A DNA stretch of 23,112 nucleotides from a virus, in IMG/VR virus record IMGVR_UViG_3300046323_000368, positions 1 through 23,112 of that record; one strand, given 5' to 3'. Position 1 is the stretch's first letter. Each line of letters opens with the position of its first letter. A program made the position numbers and the translations under genes. This document shows, in pieces, positions 2,609-5,734 of this stretch. The notes below the pieces were generated by a model. That model did no database searches and was not told where the DNA came from. It was given only the letters and a program-made list of their open reading frames with translations.

Positions 2609-2980
2609 TTACGCGCCCTGCCCTTGCAGCACCCGGCGCAGCGCTGCGTTTTCTTCACGCAGCCGGTCGTTGATCTTCTCGGTCTCGCTTTTCAGCTTAT
2701 GCAGGCTATGCAGGTCATAACCCCGCTGGTGCAGCATCCACATCAGCGGCGCATCGTTACCGCACACATCCATCAGTTTGCTGAACTTAGGCCACACAAT
2801 GCCCTCAGTGCCGCCCATCCACCGGCTGAACTGCGACTTGTCAGCACCGATCTGTTGCTGCAGCTCCTTGTCAAGCCCAAAGCCAGCCAGCTCAGCGCAC
2901 AAATGCAGCGCCTCCCCCAGCGTCTTTTTGCGGGCCACCTCTTCAGGGCGTATGTCAACAGGTAGGGCAACTTGGTTCAT
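2609..2980 (-). CDS. CII-like / Cro-like HTH regulatory protein
   Basis: A 123-residue protein whose middle (ADKSQFSRWMGG) reads as the recognition helix region of a CII/Cro-type helix-turn-helix. It is followed by a C-terminal heptad-like coiled coil (about the last 30 residues, rich in Lys, Glu and Leu) that would let it oligomerise. The reading frame is open back to a TTG at 2992. The ATG at 2980 is preferred because GCGAGG sits about 6 nt upstream. It is the gene directly before the primase-helicase (3-nt gap). In related phages such proteins either activate a lysogeny promoter or act with the replication genes; which applies here is not visible. Confidence 0.7.
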   Translation of the reverse strand: MNQVALPVDIRPEEVARKKTLGEALHLCAELAGFGLDKELQQQIGADKSQFSRWMGGTEGIVWPKFSKLMDVCGNDAPLMWMLHQRGYDLHSLHKLKSETEKINDRLREENAALRRVLQGQGA

Positions 2981-3041
2981 GAATCCTCGCAATATTGTTG
3001 AGAGCCGTTGAGTGGCTCAAATCGACCAAAAAAAAGAAACT

Positions 3042-3236
3042 CTAGGCATGCAAAAAATAAAAGCCCACACCGCCCCCGCGCACCAAACGCAAGCCGCGTC
3101 CCCGCGACTTTTTAGTGAAGAGGTTTTTGGAATCGGCACCCAGGTAGACCTGGCAGCGTGGGGAAAGAAGGCGAGCAGCCCGCTTTGCTATGCTGAAAGC
3201 CTCTACACAACCAGCTTTCACAAAGGGGCTACTCAT
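3042..3236 (-). CDS. small ORF of doubtful status, opposite the zinc-ribbon gene leader
   Basis: A 64-codon ORF starting MSSPFVKAGCVEAF. Its ATG is complementary to the ATG of the rightward zinc-ribbon gene, so the two start codons overlap on opposite strands. Its first 23 codons lie over the long hairpin at 3173-3234 and match, at both DNA and protein level, the start of the leftward ORF at 3773 (GCVEA motif). No Shine-Dalgarno is visible. The likeness may therefore reflect a conserved DNA/RNA hairpin rather than a protein. The C-terminal half is basic and glycine-rich (RLVRGGG) and was not recognised. Confidence 0.25.
   Translation of the reverse strand: MSSPFVKAGCVEAFSIAKRAARLLSPRCQVYLGADSKNLFTKKSRGRGLRLVRGGGVGFYFLHA
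3173..3234. other. long hairpin element, copy 1
   Basis: Outer arms 3173-3187 and 3221-3234 pair with one mismatch and one bulge. An inner perfect 7-bp stem (3194-3200 with 3214-3220) encloses a 13-nt apical loop containing ACACAACC. On the + strand the right arm contains AAGGGG, the ribosome binding site of the zinc-ribbon gene, so that site could be masked. On the leftward transcript the loop reads GGTTGTGTAGAGG. It is related to the element at 3708-3768. Confidence 0.6.
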
Positions 3237-3540
3237 GATCAACTTCAAAATCAACCCCGACGCAACCTTGCCCATTGCCTGCCCGCAATGCAGCGAGAAG
3301 GAGGACCAGCTTGTCAGTCGGTTGCGCGGCAACCCGGATTTGGTTTGCGGGAGTTGTGGATTGACCTTCAACGTCAACGCCGACCAGATCGACGCTGTGC
3401 TCAAAATGTTCAAAGGCTTGAATCGCTAGCCACTTTAACCAGGCCGGAGACTGGTCTAGCAGAGCGCTCAACTCTTGGGCTAAAGCTCGAAGCTCTGTTG
3501 AATCGCACTGAATGTCTAAAGTTATGGGTCCGGTGGGCAT
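3229..3540 (-). CDS. small leftward ORF coupled to the duplicated Cro-tail ORF
   Basis: A 103-codon ORF beginning MPTGPITLDIQCDSTEL. Its ATG at 3540-3538 overlaps the stop of the upstream ORF as TGATG, a typical coupling arrangement. The first 37 residues or so (helical, with ALAQELSALLDQ) look like a genuine protein start. From about 3429 leftward the frame runs antisense through the zinc-ribbon gene, and that part may be an accidental continuation. It may be an old gene whose 3' part was replaced when the zinc-ribbon cassette arrived. The product was not recognised. Confidence 0.4.
   Translation of the reverse strand: MPTGPITLDIQCDSTELRALAQELSALLDQSPAWLKWLAIQAFEHFEHSVDLVGVDVEGQSTTPANQIRVAAQPTDKLVLLLAALRAGNGQGCVGVDFEVDHE
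3235..3429 (+). CDS. small zinc-ribbon protein
   Basis: A 64-residue protein with two Cys pairs, CPQC at residues 16-19 and CGSC at 38-41, the spacing of a single treble-clef or zinc-ribbon fold. No other domain is visible. The start at 3235 is chosen over an in-frame ATG at 3190 because AAAGGGG lies about 7 nt upstream and the 3190 extension is leader sequence. It runs against the surrounding leftward operon, and its leader is the hairpin element at 3173-3234. An extended -10-like TGCTATGCT lies at 3186-3194 without a good -35. It probably binds nucleic acid or a protein partner; its expression may be confined to lysogens, when the leftward promoter is silent. Confidence 0.75.
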   Translation: MINFKINPDATLPIACPQCSEKEDQLVSRLRGNPDLVCGSCGLTFNVNADQIDAVLKMFKGLNR

Positions 3541-3773
3541 CAAACACCCCCAGCCAAAGCCGCAGCCAGCGGCGCACGGCGCTCGTGGTCGGGGTGCGGC
3601 GGGTTATTGGTTTGACGGCGGTCGGGGCCGGAGCGGGCGGCGGCTGCAGGCGCTACGGTTTCAGTAGCCGCCCTTGCGGCGGCAAGCTCATAACCGGCCA
3701 CAAAGATGCTCGCCACCTCGCGGGGCAAAATAGAAGCTTCAACACAACCATCCCCGCGAGGGGCGAGCAACAC
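3540..3773 (-). CDS. small ORF carrying a copy of the Cro-like protein's C-terminal tail
   Basis: A 77-codon ORF from a GTG at 3773 to the TGA at 3542-3540. Its last 28 residues are identical to the last 28 of the Cro-like protein encoded at 4194-4574, although the DNA differs at five positions there. All five are third-codon-position changes. That pattern argues the tail is or was translated on this strand in both places. The first third (GDGCVEASI) resembles the start of the ORF at 3236 and overlies a hairpin. No clear Shine-Dalgarno is seen at the GTG, so the start is uncertain. The ORF may be a remnant whose N-terminal part was lost when the rightward gene at 3775 was inserted. Function unknown. 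Confidence 0.4.
   Translation of the reverse strand: MLLAPRGDGCVEASILPREVASIFVAGYELAAARAATETVAPAAAARSGPDRRQTNNPPHPDHERRAPLAAALAGGV
3541..3664. repeat. 124-bp direct repeat, copy A
   Basis: It aligns without gaps to 4195-4318, with 109 of 124 positions identical by hand count (about 88%). The first 30 bases are identical, differences cluster near positions 91-108 of the repeat, and the last 14 bases are identical again. It encodes the shared C-terminal tail on the minus strand. Confidence 0.85.
3708..3768. other. long hairpin element, copy 2
   Basis: Arms 3708-3725 and 3752-3768 are almost perfectly complementary over 17 bp, with one unpaired base, around a 26-nt loop containing ACACAACC (GGTTGTGT on the other strand). 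The right arm carries GAGGGGCGAG, the ribosome binding site of the rightward gene at 3775. On the leftward transcript a second small GC-rich hairpin follows at about 3668-3684. This is the same design as at 3173-3234. Confidence 0.7.
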
Positions 3774-3774
3774 T

Positions 3775-4023
3775 ATGGAAATCGAACTAAAAGCACACAA
3801 AATCGACGGCATCAACACGGGTCCATCAGTGATCGTGCATGTGCGAGTTTTGGTGTACCCGGTGCAAGGTTTAGAGGACTTCGAGCCGTTCAAATGGGAG
3901 CTGGAAATTCCTCTGCACAAGGACTGGCGAAATCGCTCTGTGAGCGAAGTCCGGGCCCAAGGGCTGGAGTTAGCGGCAAAAGTAGTCAACATGAACAGCC
4001 TCTCTACCTTATTCGGCGAATAG
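3775..4023 (+). CDS. unknown 82-residue protein, antisense to the leftward operon
   Basis: The protein starts MEIELKAHKIDG. It has a predicted beta-rich first half (alternating Val/Ile around residues 18-30) and an amphipathic helix near the end. No family was recognised. The start at 3775 is chosen because GAGGGGCGAG lies about 8-17 nt upstream, whereas the longer frame from 3706 would translate the hairpin. Its 3' end overlaps the convergent leftward ORF (stop at 4004) by 20 bp. The leader resembles that of the zinc-ribbon gene at 3235, so the two rightward genes probably share a mode of control and may have arrived by the same route. Confidence 0.65.
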   Translation: MEIELKAHKIDGINTGPSVIVHVRVLVYPVQGLEDFEPFKWELEIPLHKDWRNRSVSEVRAQGLELAAKVVNMNSLSTLFGE

Positions 4024-4192
4024 CAAAATTTTTGGCAACAGCGCGGCTCAATTCGCTATTCGGGTCGCTGAGAGCTTCTGCCAGCGATTGCTCTTCTAGG
4101 CCGCGAGGTAACAGCCCTACGCGAGACGAAATAGCGTCTGCGACTGCCCGCTCAATCACAGGCATCAACCATCGAAGGATCAACTTACGCAT
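4004..4192 (-). CDS. small basic/hydrophobic protein coupled to the Cro-like gene
   Basis: A 62-residue protein beginning MRKLILRWLMPVIERAVADA. The N-terminus is a short basic, amphipathic or hydrophobic helix. The rest is helical and acidic (EALSDPNSELSRAVAKNF). The ATG at 4192 comes one base after the stop of the Cro-like gene (TGAGATG), so translation is probably coupled. A 48-nt longer frame inside the cro tail is less likely. The product was not recognised. Its position straight after cro in the leftward operon recalls small early host-modifying proteins, but that is inference only. Confidence 0.6.
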   Translation of the reverse strand: MRKLILRWLMPVIERAVADAISSRVGLLPRGLEEQSLAEALSDPNSELSRAVAKNFAIRRIR

Positions 4193-4193
4193 C

Positions 4194-4574
4194 TCAAACA
4201 CCCCCAGCCAAAGCCGCAGCCAGCGGCGCGCGGCGCTCATGGTCTGGGTGCGGCGGGTTGTTGGTTTGGCGGCGGTCGGGGCTGGTGTGTGTGGCGTTTT
4301 GGGGCGCTACGGTTTCAGGAGCTGCTTGCGCTTGTGTTTGTTGGGATTCGGCCAGTTCAGGCCAGTAAAAAGCGTATTTGTCCGGCCAGCGTTCTTTACG
4401 TGTGAATCGCCCTTGCGACTTGATCTCAATTTGTCCCGCCAATTCGCGCAGTCTGTATTCAGGGATGCCCTTGCCCTCCATCAGCCACTCGTACACCGAC
4501 GGCGGCTTGATGTCCAGCATTCGAGCAACACATGGCACACCACCCAAGACATTGATGATTTCAAAATCGTTCAT
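4194..4574 (-). CDS. Cro-like repressor (YdaS/Cro-type HTH) with a duplicated tail
   Basis: The first gene of the leftward operon, 126 residues. Residues about 8-45 form a Cro/YdaS-type helix-turn-helix (GGVPCVARMLDI, then SVYEWL and GIPEYRLREL). The usual Cro length is 60-80 residues. Here a low-complexity Gln/Ala/Pro linker (about 75-97) leads to a 28-residue Arg/Pro/Ala tail that also ends the ORF at 3540. No ribosome binding site precedes the ATG. A promoter (-35 at 4609-4604, -10 TATACT at 4586-4581) would start transcription exactly on its A, so the mRNA is predicted to be leaderless. It probably binds the operators at 4586-4645, with CI opposing it. Confidence 0.8.
   Translation of the reverse strand: MNDFEIINVLGGVPCVARMLDIKPPSVYEWLMEGKGIPEYRLRELAGQIEIKSQGRFTRKERWPDKYAFYWPELAESQQTQAQAAPETVAPQNATHTSPDRRQTNNPPHPDHERRAPLAAALAGGV
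4195..4318. repeat. 124-bp direct repeat, copy B
   Basis: The partner of 3541-3664, encoding the C-terminal tail of the Cro-like protein on the minus strand. The two copies share the stop codon, and each is followed at once by a coupled start codon (TGATG in copy A, TGAGATG here). Confidence 0.85.
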
Positions 4575-4580
4575 CAGTGC

Positions 4581-4609
4581 AGTATAGGCATACCTTATTT
4601 AAAAGTCCA
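4581..4609 (-). promoter_or_regulatory. leftward early promoter (PL-like)
   Basis: Read on the minus strand: -35 TGGACT (4609-4604), a 17-nt spacer, -10 TATACT (4586-4581), and predicted +1 at 4574, the A of the cro ATG. Operator O1 fills the spacer and touches the first base of the -10. O2 starts one base upstream of the -35. The rightward promoter at 5810-5838 has exactly the same arrangement, which supports the call. Confidence 0.7.
4586..4595. promoter_or_regulatory. operator O1 (AGGCATACCT)
   Basis: A palindromic site of the form AGGYNNRCCT within a wider near-palindrome (4583-4598, TATAGGCA/TACCTTAT). Its centre is 25.0 bp from O2. Confidence 0.75.
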
Positions 4610-4610
4610 T

Positions 4611-4620
4611 AGGCAAACCT
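4611..4620. promoter_or_regulatory. operator O2 (AGGCAAACCT)
   Basis: The middle one of three evenly spaced sites, one base upstream of the leftward -35. Its centre is 25 bp from both O1 and O3. Confidence 0.75.
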
Positions 4621-4635
4621 CATATTTTTTAAACT

Positions 4636-4645
4636 AGGCTAGCCT
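4636..4645. promoter_or_regulatory. operator O3 (AGGCTAGCCT)
   Basis: A perfect 10-bp palindrome ending one base before the start codon of the repressor gene at 4647. Binding here should block the repressor's own transcription or translation start, giving negative autoregulation. A weak -10 (TAAACT, 4630-4635) with no good -35 precedes it, so the repressor mRNA may also be leaderless, like lambda cI from PRM. Confidence 0.75.
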
Positions 4646-4646
4646 T

Positions 4647-5063
4647 ATGCAAACAACACTCGCTGATCGTTTGAAGTACGCCATGGCAGGCCCGCCCAAA
4701 ATAACCGGGCTGGCATTGGCCAAAGCATGCGGCGTGTCCCAGCCATCTGTAAGCGACTGGCTAAATGGCACCACAAAAAGCATGGATGGCGTTAACCTGA
4801 TCGCCGCAGCCGAGTTTTTACGCGTCAACCCCAAATGGCTGGCTACAGGGCTCGGCTTAAAAATTGATCCGCCGTCCGGTCAAAGTGGAATTGCTAGAGA
4901 ACCTGTAGAGCCCTATTGCTTCGACAAGTGGACATCCGAAGCAATTCGACTTTTTAAGAGCCTGCAACAACACCAGCGCGAAGGCGCACTCGCTGCTTTA
5001 AAAACGCATATAAGCCATCTGGATACACCCGAAAACGGCCAAACTCTACGCATGGCCGGATAA
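4647..5063 (+). CDS. CI-like prophage repressor without a LexA/S24 peptidase domain
   Basis: A 138-residue repressor. Residues about 5-45 form an XRE-type HTH (LADRLKYAMA, LALAKACGVSQPSVSDWLNG). Next comes the NPKWLATGLG segment (61-70) that normally precedes the peptidase domain of CI/LexA-like repressors. Instead of the S24 serine-lysine protease (about 100 residues), only a 65-residue helical tail follows (FDKWTSEAIRLFKSL). RecA-stimulated self-cleavage is therefore not expected, and induction probably needs Cro, an antirepressor or another signal. It is divergent from cro across three operators. No Shine-Dalgarno is visible before the ATG. Confidence 0.85.
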   Translation: MQTTLADRLKYAMAGPPKITGLALAKACGVSQPSVSDWLNGTTKSMDGVNLIAAAEFLRVNPKWLATGLGLKIDPPSGQSGIAREPVEPYCFDKWTSEAIRLFKSLQQHQREGALAALKTHISHLDTPENGQTLRMAG

Positions 5064-5177: not shown

Positions 5178-5288
5178 ATGCCTGATGACTACAGGGCGCA
5201 TGTACCCCCACGGCCGTTGCCGCCCCCAGCACCACCACCTTTGCGAAACGATCAAAAGGCCAGCAAATGTCAAACGAACGCGGCATAA
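5178..5288 (+). CDS. possible 36-residue proline-rich peptide overlapping the SLATT-like gene
   Basis: The frame runs MPDDYRAHVPPRPLPPPAPP and then on to a TAA inside the next gene (22-bp overlap, different frame). GGAAAG lies 7-8 nt upstream of the ATG. Runs of Pro-Pro-Pro would slow ribosomes unless EF-P helps. However, the promoter at 5148-5177 would start transcription after this ATG, so it could only be made from read-through of the repressor transcript. It may be an upstream regulatory ORF or chance. Confidence 0.3.
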   Translation: MPDDYRAHVPPRPLPPPAPPPLRNDQKASKCQTNAA

Positions 5289-5734
5289 CACTGAATGAAA
5301 TTCGATACGCTGAAAGGCTTTGCCAGCGCACAGCCAGGCTGTATCGACACGTCCAGAGCTTTGGCACTTGGCTTACCGTAGTCGGCGGTAGCGGCACGCT
5401 TGCCGCGCTTGCAAACAATGTACCCAATTGGGTGCCGATTACCGGTGCAATCGTGTTCGCCGCTGCCGGAGCTGCGCTTATCGCCATGCGGCCAGCAGAC
5501 AAAGCAGCCATGAATGAAGCCGATGCCAAACGGTACGCAGCACTCCGCACTCGGGGCCTTGGGCTTGACGACAAGGCCCTTCGCGCGGCGCTTGAGGAAG
5601 CCAGGCAATCAGATGTTGCCGAAGTTGAAGCCCTGCGTGACGTGGCCTGGAACGACGTAGTACAAGAAGTGGGCTATGCAGACAAAAGGGTGTTGCTTTC
5701 AATACCGCAGCGTTTACTTTCTGCCATCGCGTAA
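5267..5734 (+). CDS. SLATT-like two-helix membrane protein (candidate superinfection-exclusion or defence moron)
   Basis: A 155-residue protein with the layout of SLATT-type membrane effectors: an N-terminal charged helix (AERLCQRTARLYRHV), two adjacent membrane segments (about residues 31-49 and 54-74) with a very short turn, and a C-terminal cytosolic helical part rich in Ala, Glu and Arg that ends in an aromatic-poor tail. SLATT proteins are predicted pore-forming effectors in nucleotide-signalling defence systems. Here no sensor or cyclase gene is adjacent. It has its own promoter (5148-5177), an AAAGG binding site and its own terminator (5757-5779), and lies just after the repressor, the place of rexAB in lambda. 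The membrane topology is clear; the SLATT assignment is by resemblance and moderate. Alternatives are an unrelated inner-membrane exclusion protein or a holin-like toxin. Confidence 0.6.
   Translation: MSNERGITLNEIRYAERLCQRTARLYRHVQSFGTWLTVVGGSGTLAALANNVPNWVPITGAIVFAAAGAALIAMRPADKAAMNEADAKRYAALRTRGLGLDDKALRAALEEARQSDVAEVEALRDVAWNDVVQEVGYADKRVLLSIPQRLLSAIA

Follow-up and report, generated by a model that had tools for sequence, protein, structure and literature searches.

A direct repeat of the cro 3′ end between cro and the CII-like gene of a phage genome

Genes of the cro–cII interval

The window (the whole stretch of viral DNA analyzed here, 23,112 nucleotides) carries on its minus strand a gene for a 126-residue Cro-like HTH protein (positions 4197–4574, or from 4194 with the stop codon), which can be divided into a core (residues 1–74), a linker (residues 75–98), and a tail (residues 99–126). 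Its assignment to Pfam families is borderline, passing narrowly for YdaS_toxin (30.1 bits, cut-off 30) and falling on either side of the threshold for P22_Cro (29 bits against a cut-off of 30.2 in the protein scan, above cut-off in the genome scan); four relatives are ~69–78% identical to it across the core. A CI-like HTH_3 protein (4647–5063, plus strand) is encoded divergently from cro, which is the first gene of the early operon and is preceded by a promoter-like site (TGGACT-17-TATACT, 4581–4609, minus strand) of a kind that shuffled sequences also yield about once. The HTH core, the divergent CI-like gene, and the position at the start of an early operon are all shared with the small P22-Cro/YdaS regulators; the window protein differs from the members compared in continuing for ~50 residues past the core and ending in a 28-residue tail unseen there. 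In an AlphaFold2 model (five sequences) the helical core is moderately confident and the tail is unstructured, with a pLDDT of about 50. Because the disordered C-terminal tail of lambda Cro touches DNA in simulations (PMC12670291), it is plausible by analogy that the flexible, arginine-bearing tail of the present protein influences DNA binding somewhat. Beside the CI-like gene, a 155-residue protein (5267–5734, plus strand) matches PADLOC 2TM effector models weakly and phage families of unknown function clearly.

Along the minus strand, cro is followed by ORF62, by the second copy of a direct repeat (copy 2, described below), by a doubtful ORF, by a CII-like gene, and by a large gene (2605–50). 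The start codon of ORF62 (4004–4192, minus strand) stands next to the cro stop (TGAGATG) with a GGGGG upstream, and family and relative searches returned neither a family match nor kin for it. The doubtful ORF (103 codons, 3229–3540, minus strand, weak codon score) begins with a start that overlaps the stop of copy 2 (TGATG), and lies antisense to the whole of the zinc-ribbon gene (3235–3429, plus strand), such that one of the two is probably non-coding over the stretch that they share. The zinc-ribbon gene encodes a 64-residue YnfU-family zinc-binding protein (NCBIfam NF038384, 39.7 bits, cut-off 36), for which a kin search gave none. The CII-like regulator (2609–2980, minus strand), named from a weak CII-like PHROG match, forms the downstream border of the variable interval and has relatives at 48 viral loci.

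Converging on ORF62 is a second small gene, ORF82 (3775–4023, plus strand), with a codon score of +0.26 against −0.39 for the antisense frame; it has no significant family match, and its kin searches yielded no more than a weak, partial match within a different and larger protein. Its leader holds a strong hairpin (3707–3769, plus strand; 18 bp, z −7.8 against dinucleotide shuffles) that includes the likely ribosome site. In this leader and in that of the YnfU zinc ribbon (3193–3230, plus strand) the likely ribosome site is predicted to be paired, and both display a similar loop, AAGCYTCWACACAACCA, identical at 15 of 17 positions and largely exposed in the predicted fold; within the window, ACACAACC is found only in these two leaders. 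The two unrelated plus-strand genes could be under shared RNA control. No sigma-70-like promoter or terminator of the plus-strand genes passed a simple scan.

Silent differences between the two cro ends

The 3′ end of cro, comprising the linker, the 28-codon tail, and the stop (copy 1; 4194–4330, minus strand), recurs as a second cro-type 3′ end in direct orientation at 3540–3678 (copy 2, minus strand), which we read as a remnant for the reasons given below. A direct repeat had been proposed here in an earlier, sequence-only reading of this DNA, and it is genuine: in a direct-repeat comparison it scores highest in the 23-kb window, with 132 nt matching ungapped at 87% or, when a 2-nt gap is admitted, 139 nt at 86% (E 2e-43). 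The copies are spaced by 654 bp, equal to 218 codons, and are read in the same minus-strand frame. Their common 28 codons (4280–4197 and 3626–3543) encode the identical peptide PDRRQTNNPPHPDHERRAPLAAALAGGV, and we reproduce the further claim that these codons differ only silently, there being five nucleotide differences, each at a third position and each synonymous.

Comparison of the two copies by the Nei–Gojobori method gives a dN of 0 and a dS of 0.26 for the tail, against a dN of 0.35 and a dS of 0.28 for the 15 codons upstream of it, the silent changes behind these rates being few (five in the tail and three in the upstream codons). An all-silent outcome arises in 0.1–0.35% of random placements of five changes (the range follows the transition bias), and a Fisher test on the Nei–Gojobori sites of the tail gives p about 0.001; these values are somewhat generous, since the 28-codon limit was itself set at the first amino-acid change. 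None of the other five frames leaves all five changes synonymous. The forward-shifted frame, which has the better codon score, was considered as the constrained frame and rejected, as all five changes alter amino acids there. The final 36 nt of the repeat are identical between the copies, and the ribosome site lies within them.

Silent change is thus spread about evenly along the repeat whereas amino-acid change is not, most simply read as selection on the tail peptide and little on the linker. The substitution pattern points to a tail constrained as protein and a linker free to change, in agreement with the earlier suggestion that the tail has been under selection. The G+C content of the tail DNA (4197–4280 and 3543–3626) is 71–73%, compared with 52–57% in the cro core and linker, a compositional difference that hints at a foreign origin of the tail.

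Cro ends and insertion boundaries in related phages

No instance of the tail came up when 50,697 phage records and 72,556 plasmid records were searched at the protein level (records very near the window may have been omitted from these, so that unseen close kin are possible). A degenerate pattern scan of viral contigs likewise found none, and genome contigs gave nothing credible, their sole match being a chance one in Nocardiopsis. The repeat DNA queried alone returned only short, low-scoring matches, mostly from high-GC genomes, and distant DNA searches with the region gave no match in phages or plasmids. The closest Cro relatives (loci L003, L015, L060, and L064) are without the tail and end soon after the conserved ...YWPEL core, and the more distant Cro relatives lack it too. 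The proposal of a portable tail consequently finds no support, there being no occurrence beyond this record in any of these searches and, among phage proteins, no case of the tail on an unrelated N-terminus.

Both copies of the repeat close with GCT GGG GGT GTT TGA, giving a Shine–Dalgarno-like GGGGG ahead of the next start, and in both the stop is joined to a new start codon (GTT TGA G ATG at the end of copy 1, GTT TGATG at the end of copy 2), an arrangement that the sequence-only reading had described correctly. At five related loci (L003, L015, L064, L023, and L018) cro ends in CAG GGG G-- and a stop, with an ATG 0–1 bases on, such that a Shine–Dalgarno-like AGGGGG stands a few bases ahead of the next start; this ending recurs at all five although the linkers that precede it differ. 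The ORFs after cro vary from phage to phage. Judged from these ends, the conserved portion of the cro end in the phage group is the ribosome site for the next ORF, and this site appears to be what holds the C-terminal Gln-Gly of Cro constant. The signal is a property of cro ends across the group and is independent of the tail, contrary to the view of the tail as a coupling module, and the stop–start at the end of the repeat is best regarded as an ordinary operon feature common to related phages. Stop–start overlaps couple translation in many genomes (PMC6728339); the arrangement seen here, TGATG or TGAGATG with a Shine–Dalgarno-like site inside the upstream gene, does not differ in kind from the termination–reinitiation overlaps treated there, the signal in the present group residing in the last codons of several cro genes. 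Translation across the cro end may be coupled in practice.

The boundary between cro and cII is occupied differently in the window and in its relatives. At loci L015/L016, whose cro core is 74% identical to that of the window, the cII match follows 84 bp after cro; the window has a gap of about 1.2 kb, in which there are two small cassettes with a copy of the tail ahead of each, and thus carries extra genes where relatives have none, as is the mark of moron-like insertions. DNA similarity to the L015/L061 phage extends through cro to ...YWPEL (window position 4350), is then interrupted, and resumes at window position 3037, a point 28 nt past the cro stop in that phage. This break and resumption identify the tail, ORF62, ORF82, copy 2, the zinc ribbon, and the doubtful ORF as extra material at the cro–cII boundary. 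No relative that has the tail but not the insert was recovered, and L015/L016 are without both. In a plasmid of Comamonas odontotermitis used for comparison, the gene order runs from an S24-family peptidase gene through a cro-like frame that lacks annotation, a gene of the CII family, and a hypothetical gene to VapE, whose position is occupied in the window by the large gene 2605–50.

Origin of the second copy

The frame over copy 2 is open from 4055 to 3540 on the minus strand, and long open frames mean little here because a 541-codon plus-strand frame (3012–4637) also covers the region. A well-placed Shine–Dalgarno sequence is missing before the candidate starts near 3701 and 3773, and ATG 3992, the only good start candidate, sits in DNA that scores as plus-strand coding. 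The small ORF at 3540–3773 gave no relatives and no family match in our searches and lies antisense to the better-scoring ORF82 and its hairpin leader; from these features it is probably not a gene. The earlier claim that two proteins share the tail accordingly stands insofar as a second open frame exists, while the existence of a second protein is in doubt. Going upstream from copy 2, the similarity stops near 3678, with a 2-nt gap, so that the cro frame does not continue there. Given the want of a convincing start, and the ORF82 leader just upstream, copy 2 is most likely a remnant, the severed end of another cro allele. That it holds no amino-acid change would then mean either that the joining was recent relative to the split of the alleles or that copy 2 is under selection.

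We favor, with somewhat more confidence than doubt, an account in which two diverged cro 3′ ends were put in tandem by recombination, copy 1 finishing Cro and copy 2 being a remnant. The interval from cro to the CII-like gene would be a variable cassette site of the phage group, and the window would hold two tandem cassettes along the minus strand, each consisting of a cro 3′ end with its Shine–Dalgarno sequence and stop–start, a small ORF on the minus strand, and a convergent gene on the plus strand (ORF82 in one, the YnfU zinc ribbon in the other). Two parental phages, both with the 28-residue tail on cro, would have had their cro ends brought together by recombination; copy 1 would now complete the present Cro, and copy 2 would be a truncated piece of the other allele's end, whose remaining role would at most be that of a ribosome site for the following ORF. 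On this account only silent differences would have built up because each tail worked as a Cro C-terminus for most of the time that the two were diverging, with the linker at liberty to vary, and the stop–start would represent the group's usual handover of ribosomes from cro to the next ORF. Phage recombinases efficiently join DNA diverged by 22% (PMC2327257), and recombination between the copies, computed at three points, gives the same Cro protein in each case with ORF62 and ORF82 removed. The repeat, its silent pattern, the site of insertion, and the cro-end signal common to the group are shown by the data, whereas the history of recombination, the reading of copy 2 as a remnant, and any actual coupling are inferred. 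Against the account count the failure to recover a tail-bearing relative free of the insert, the lack of amino-acid change in copy 2, and the negative promoter and terminator scan for the plus-strand genes.

Tandem duplication of the whole unit (tail, minus-strand ORF, plus-strand gene, and leader) within one lineage, with later replacement of the inner genes and with both tails under selection while copy 2 was temporarily part of a second cro, would account for the like layout of the two units and for the 15 of 17 bases common to the plus-strand leaders. We consider it rather unlikely, as the units are otherwise unlike beyond the tail and the leader match, and that match was reached by 9 of 500 shuffles. 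It is also unlikely that a second protein, OrfB, really exists and terminates in copy 2, Cro's tail then being a C-terminal module under selection, perhaps because of a shared partner or a role in degradation: although the 28 codons of copy 2 are free of stops, frameshifts, and amino-acid changes and the linker is in frame, the start site is not convincing, the upstream DNA is the ORF82 hairpin leader, the N-terminal part has a neutral codon score, and neither relatives of OrfB nor the tail on any other protein were found. Maintenance of the repeat as DNA or RNA (a binding or recombination site, or a structured RNA) and not as protein is very improbable. The identity of the last 36 nt, ribosome site included, would suit such a role, as would the folding of the copy 1 plus strand, which exceeds that of simple shuffles (z −3.2); every change is nonetheless a silent third position of the cro frame, and the folding of copy 2 is not unusual on either strand, so that a conserved structure of the repeat is rejected.

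Elements that integrate into a gene and rebuild its 3′ end leave one copy to finish the gene and have the other 3′ end beyond the insert, in direct repeat. The window resembles them in that the direct repeat holds the 3′ end of a gene that is kept intact, and differs in that the 654-bp unit is without a recombinase and holds only ORF62 and ORF82, neither significantly family-matched. We found no apt precedent in the literature for duplicated gene ends in phages. It is conceivable, if quite improbable, that the 654-bp unit is a recombinase-free cassette that enters genomes via the cro 3′ end and carries the last 28 Cro codons in synonymous form, insertion and excision by homologous recombination preserving Cro at what would be a self-repairing docking site. 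If the unit were mobile in this way, it would offer genes a simple route into an essential operon while leaving the entered gene unbroken.

Under the recombination account that we prefer, the duplicated cro end at a cassette site would be an unusual yet explicable outcome of phage mosaicism. Mosaicism (PMC2327257) and moron-like insertions likewise present small genes of opposite orientation at a gene boundary with diverged homology alongside, and the present case departs from them in having two copies of the boundary gene's own 3′ coding end. The joining of two diverged alleles of one gene end can thereby mimic a selected module, and silent-only differences may reflect constraint in the parents without necessarily implying that both copies function today. 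For the phage group, the cro ends suggest a recurrent design in which cro carries the ribosome site of the next gene in its final codons and adjoins a site of gene insertion.
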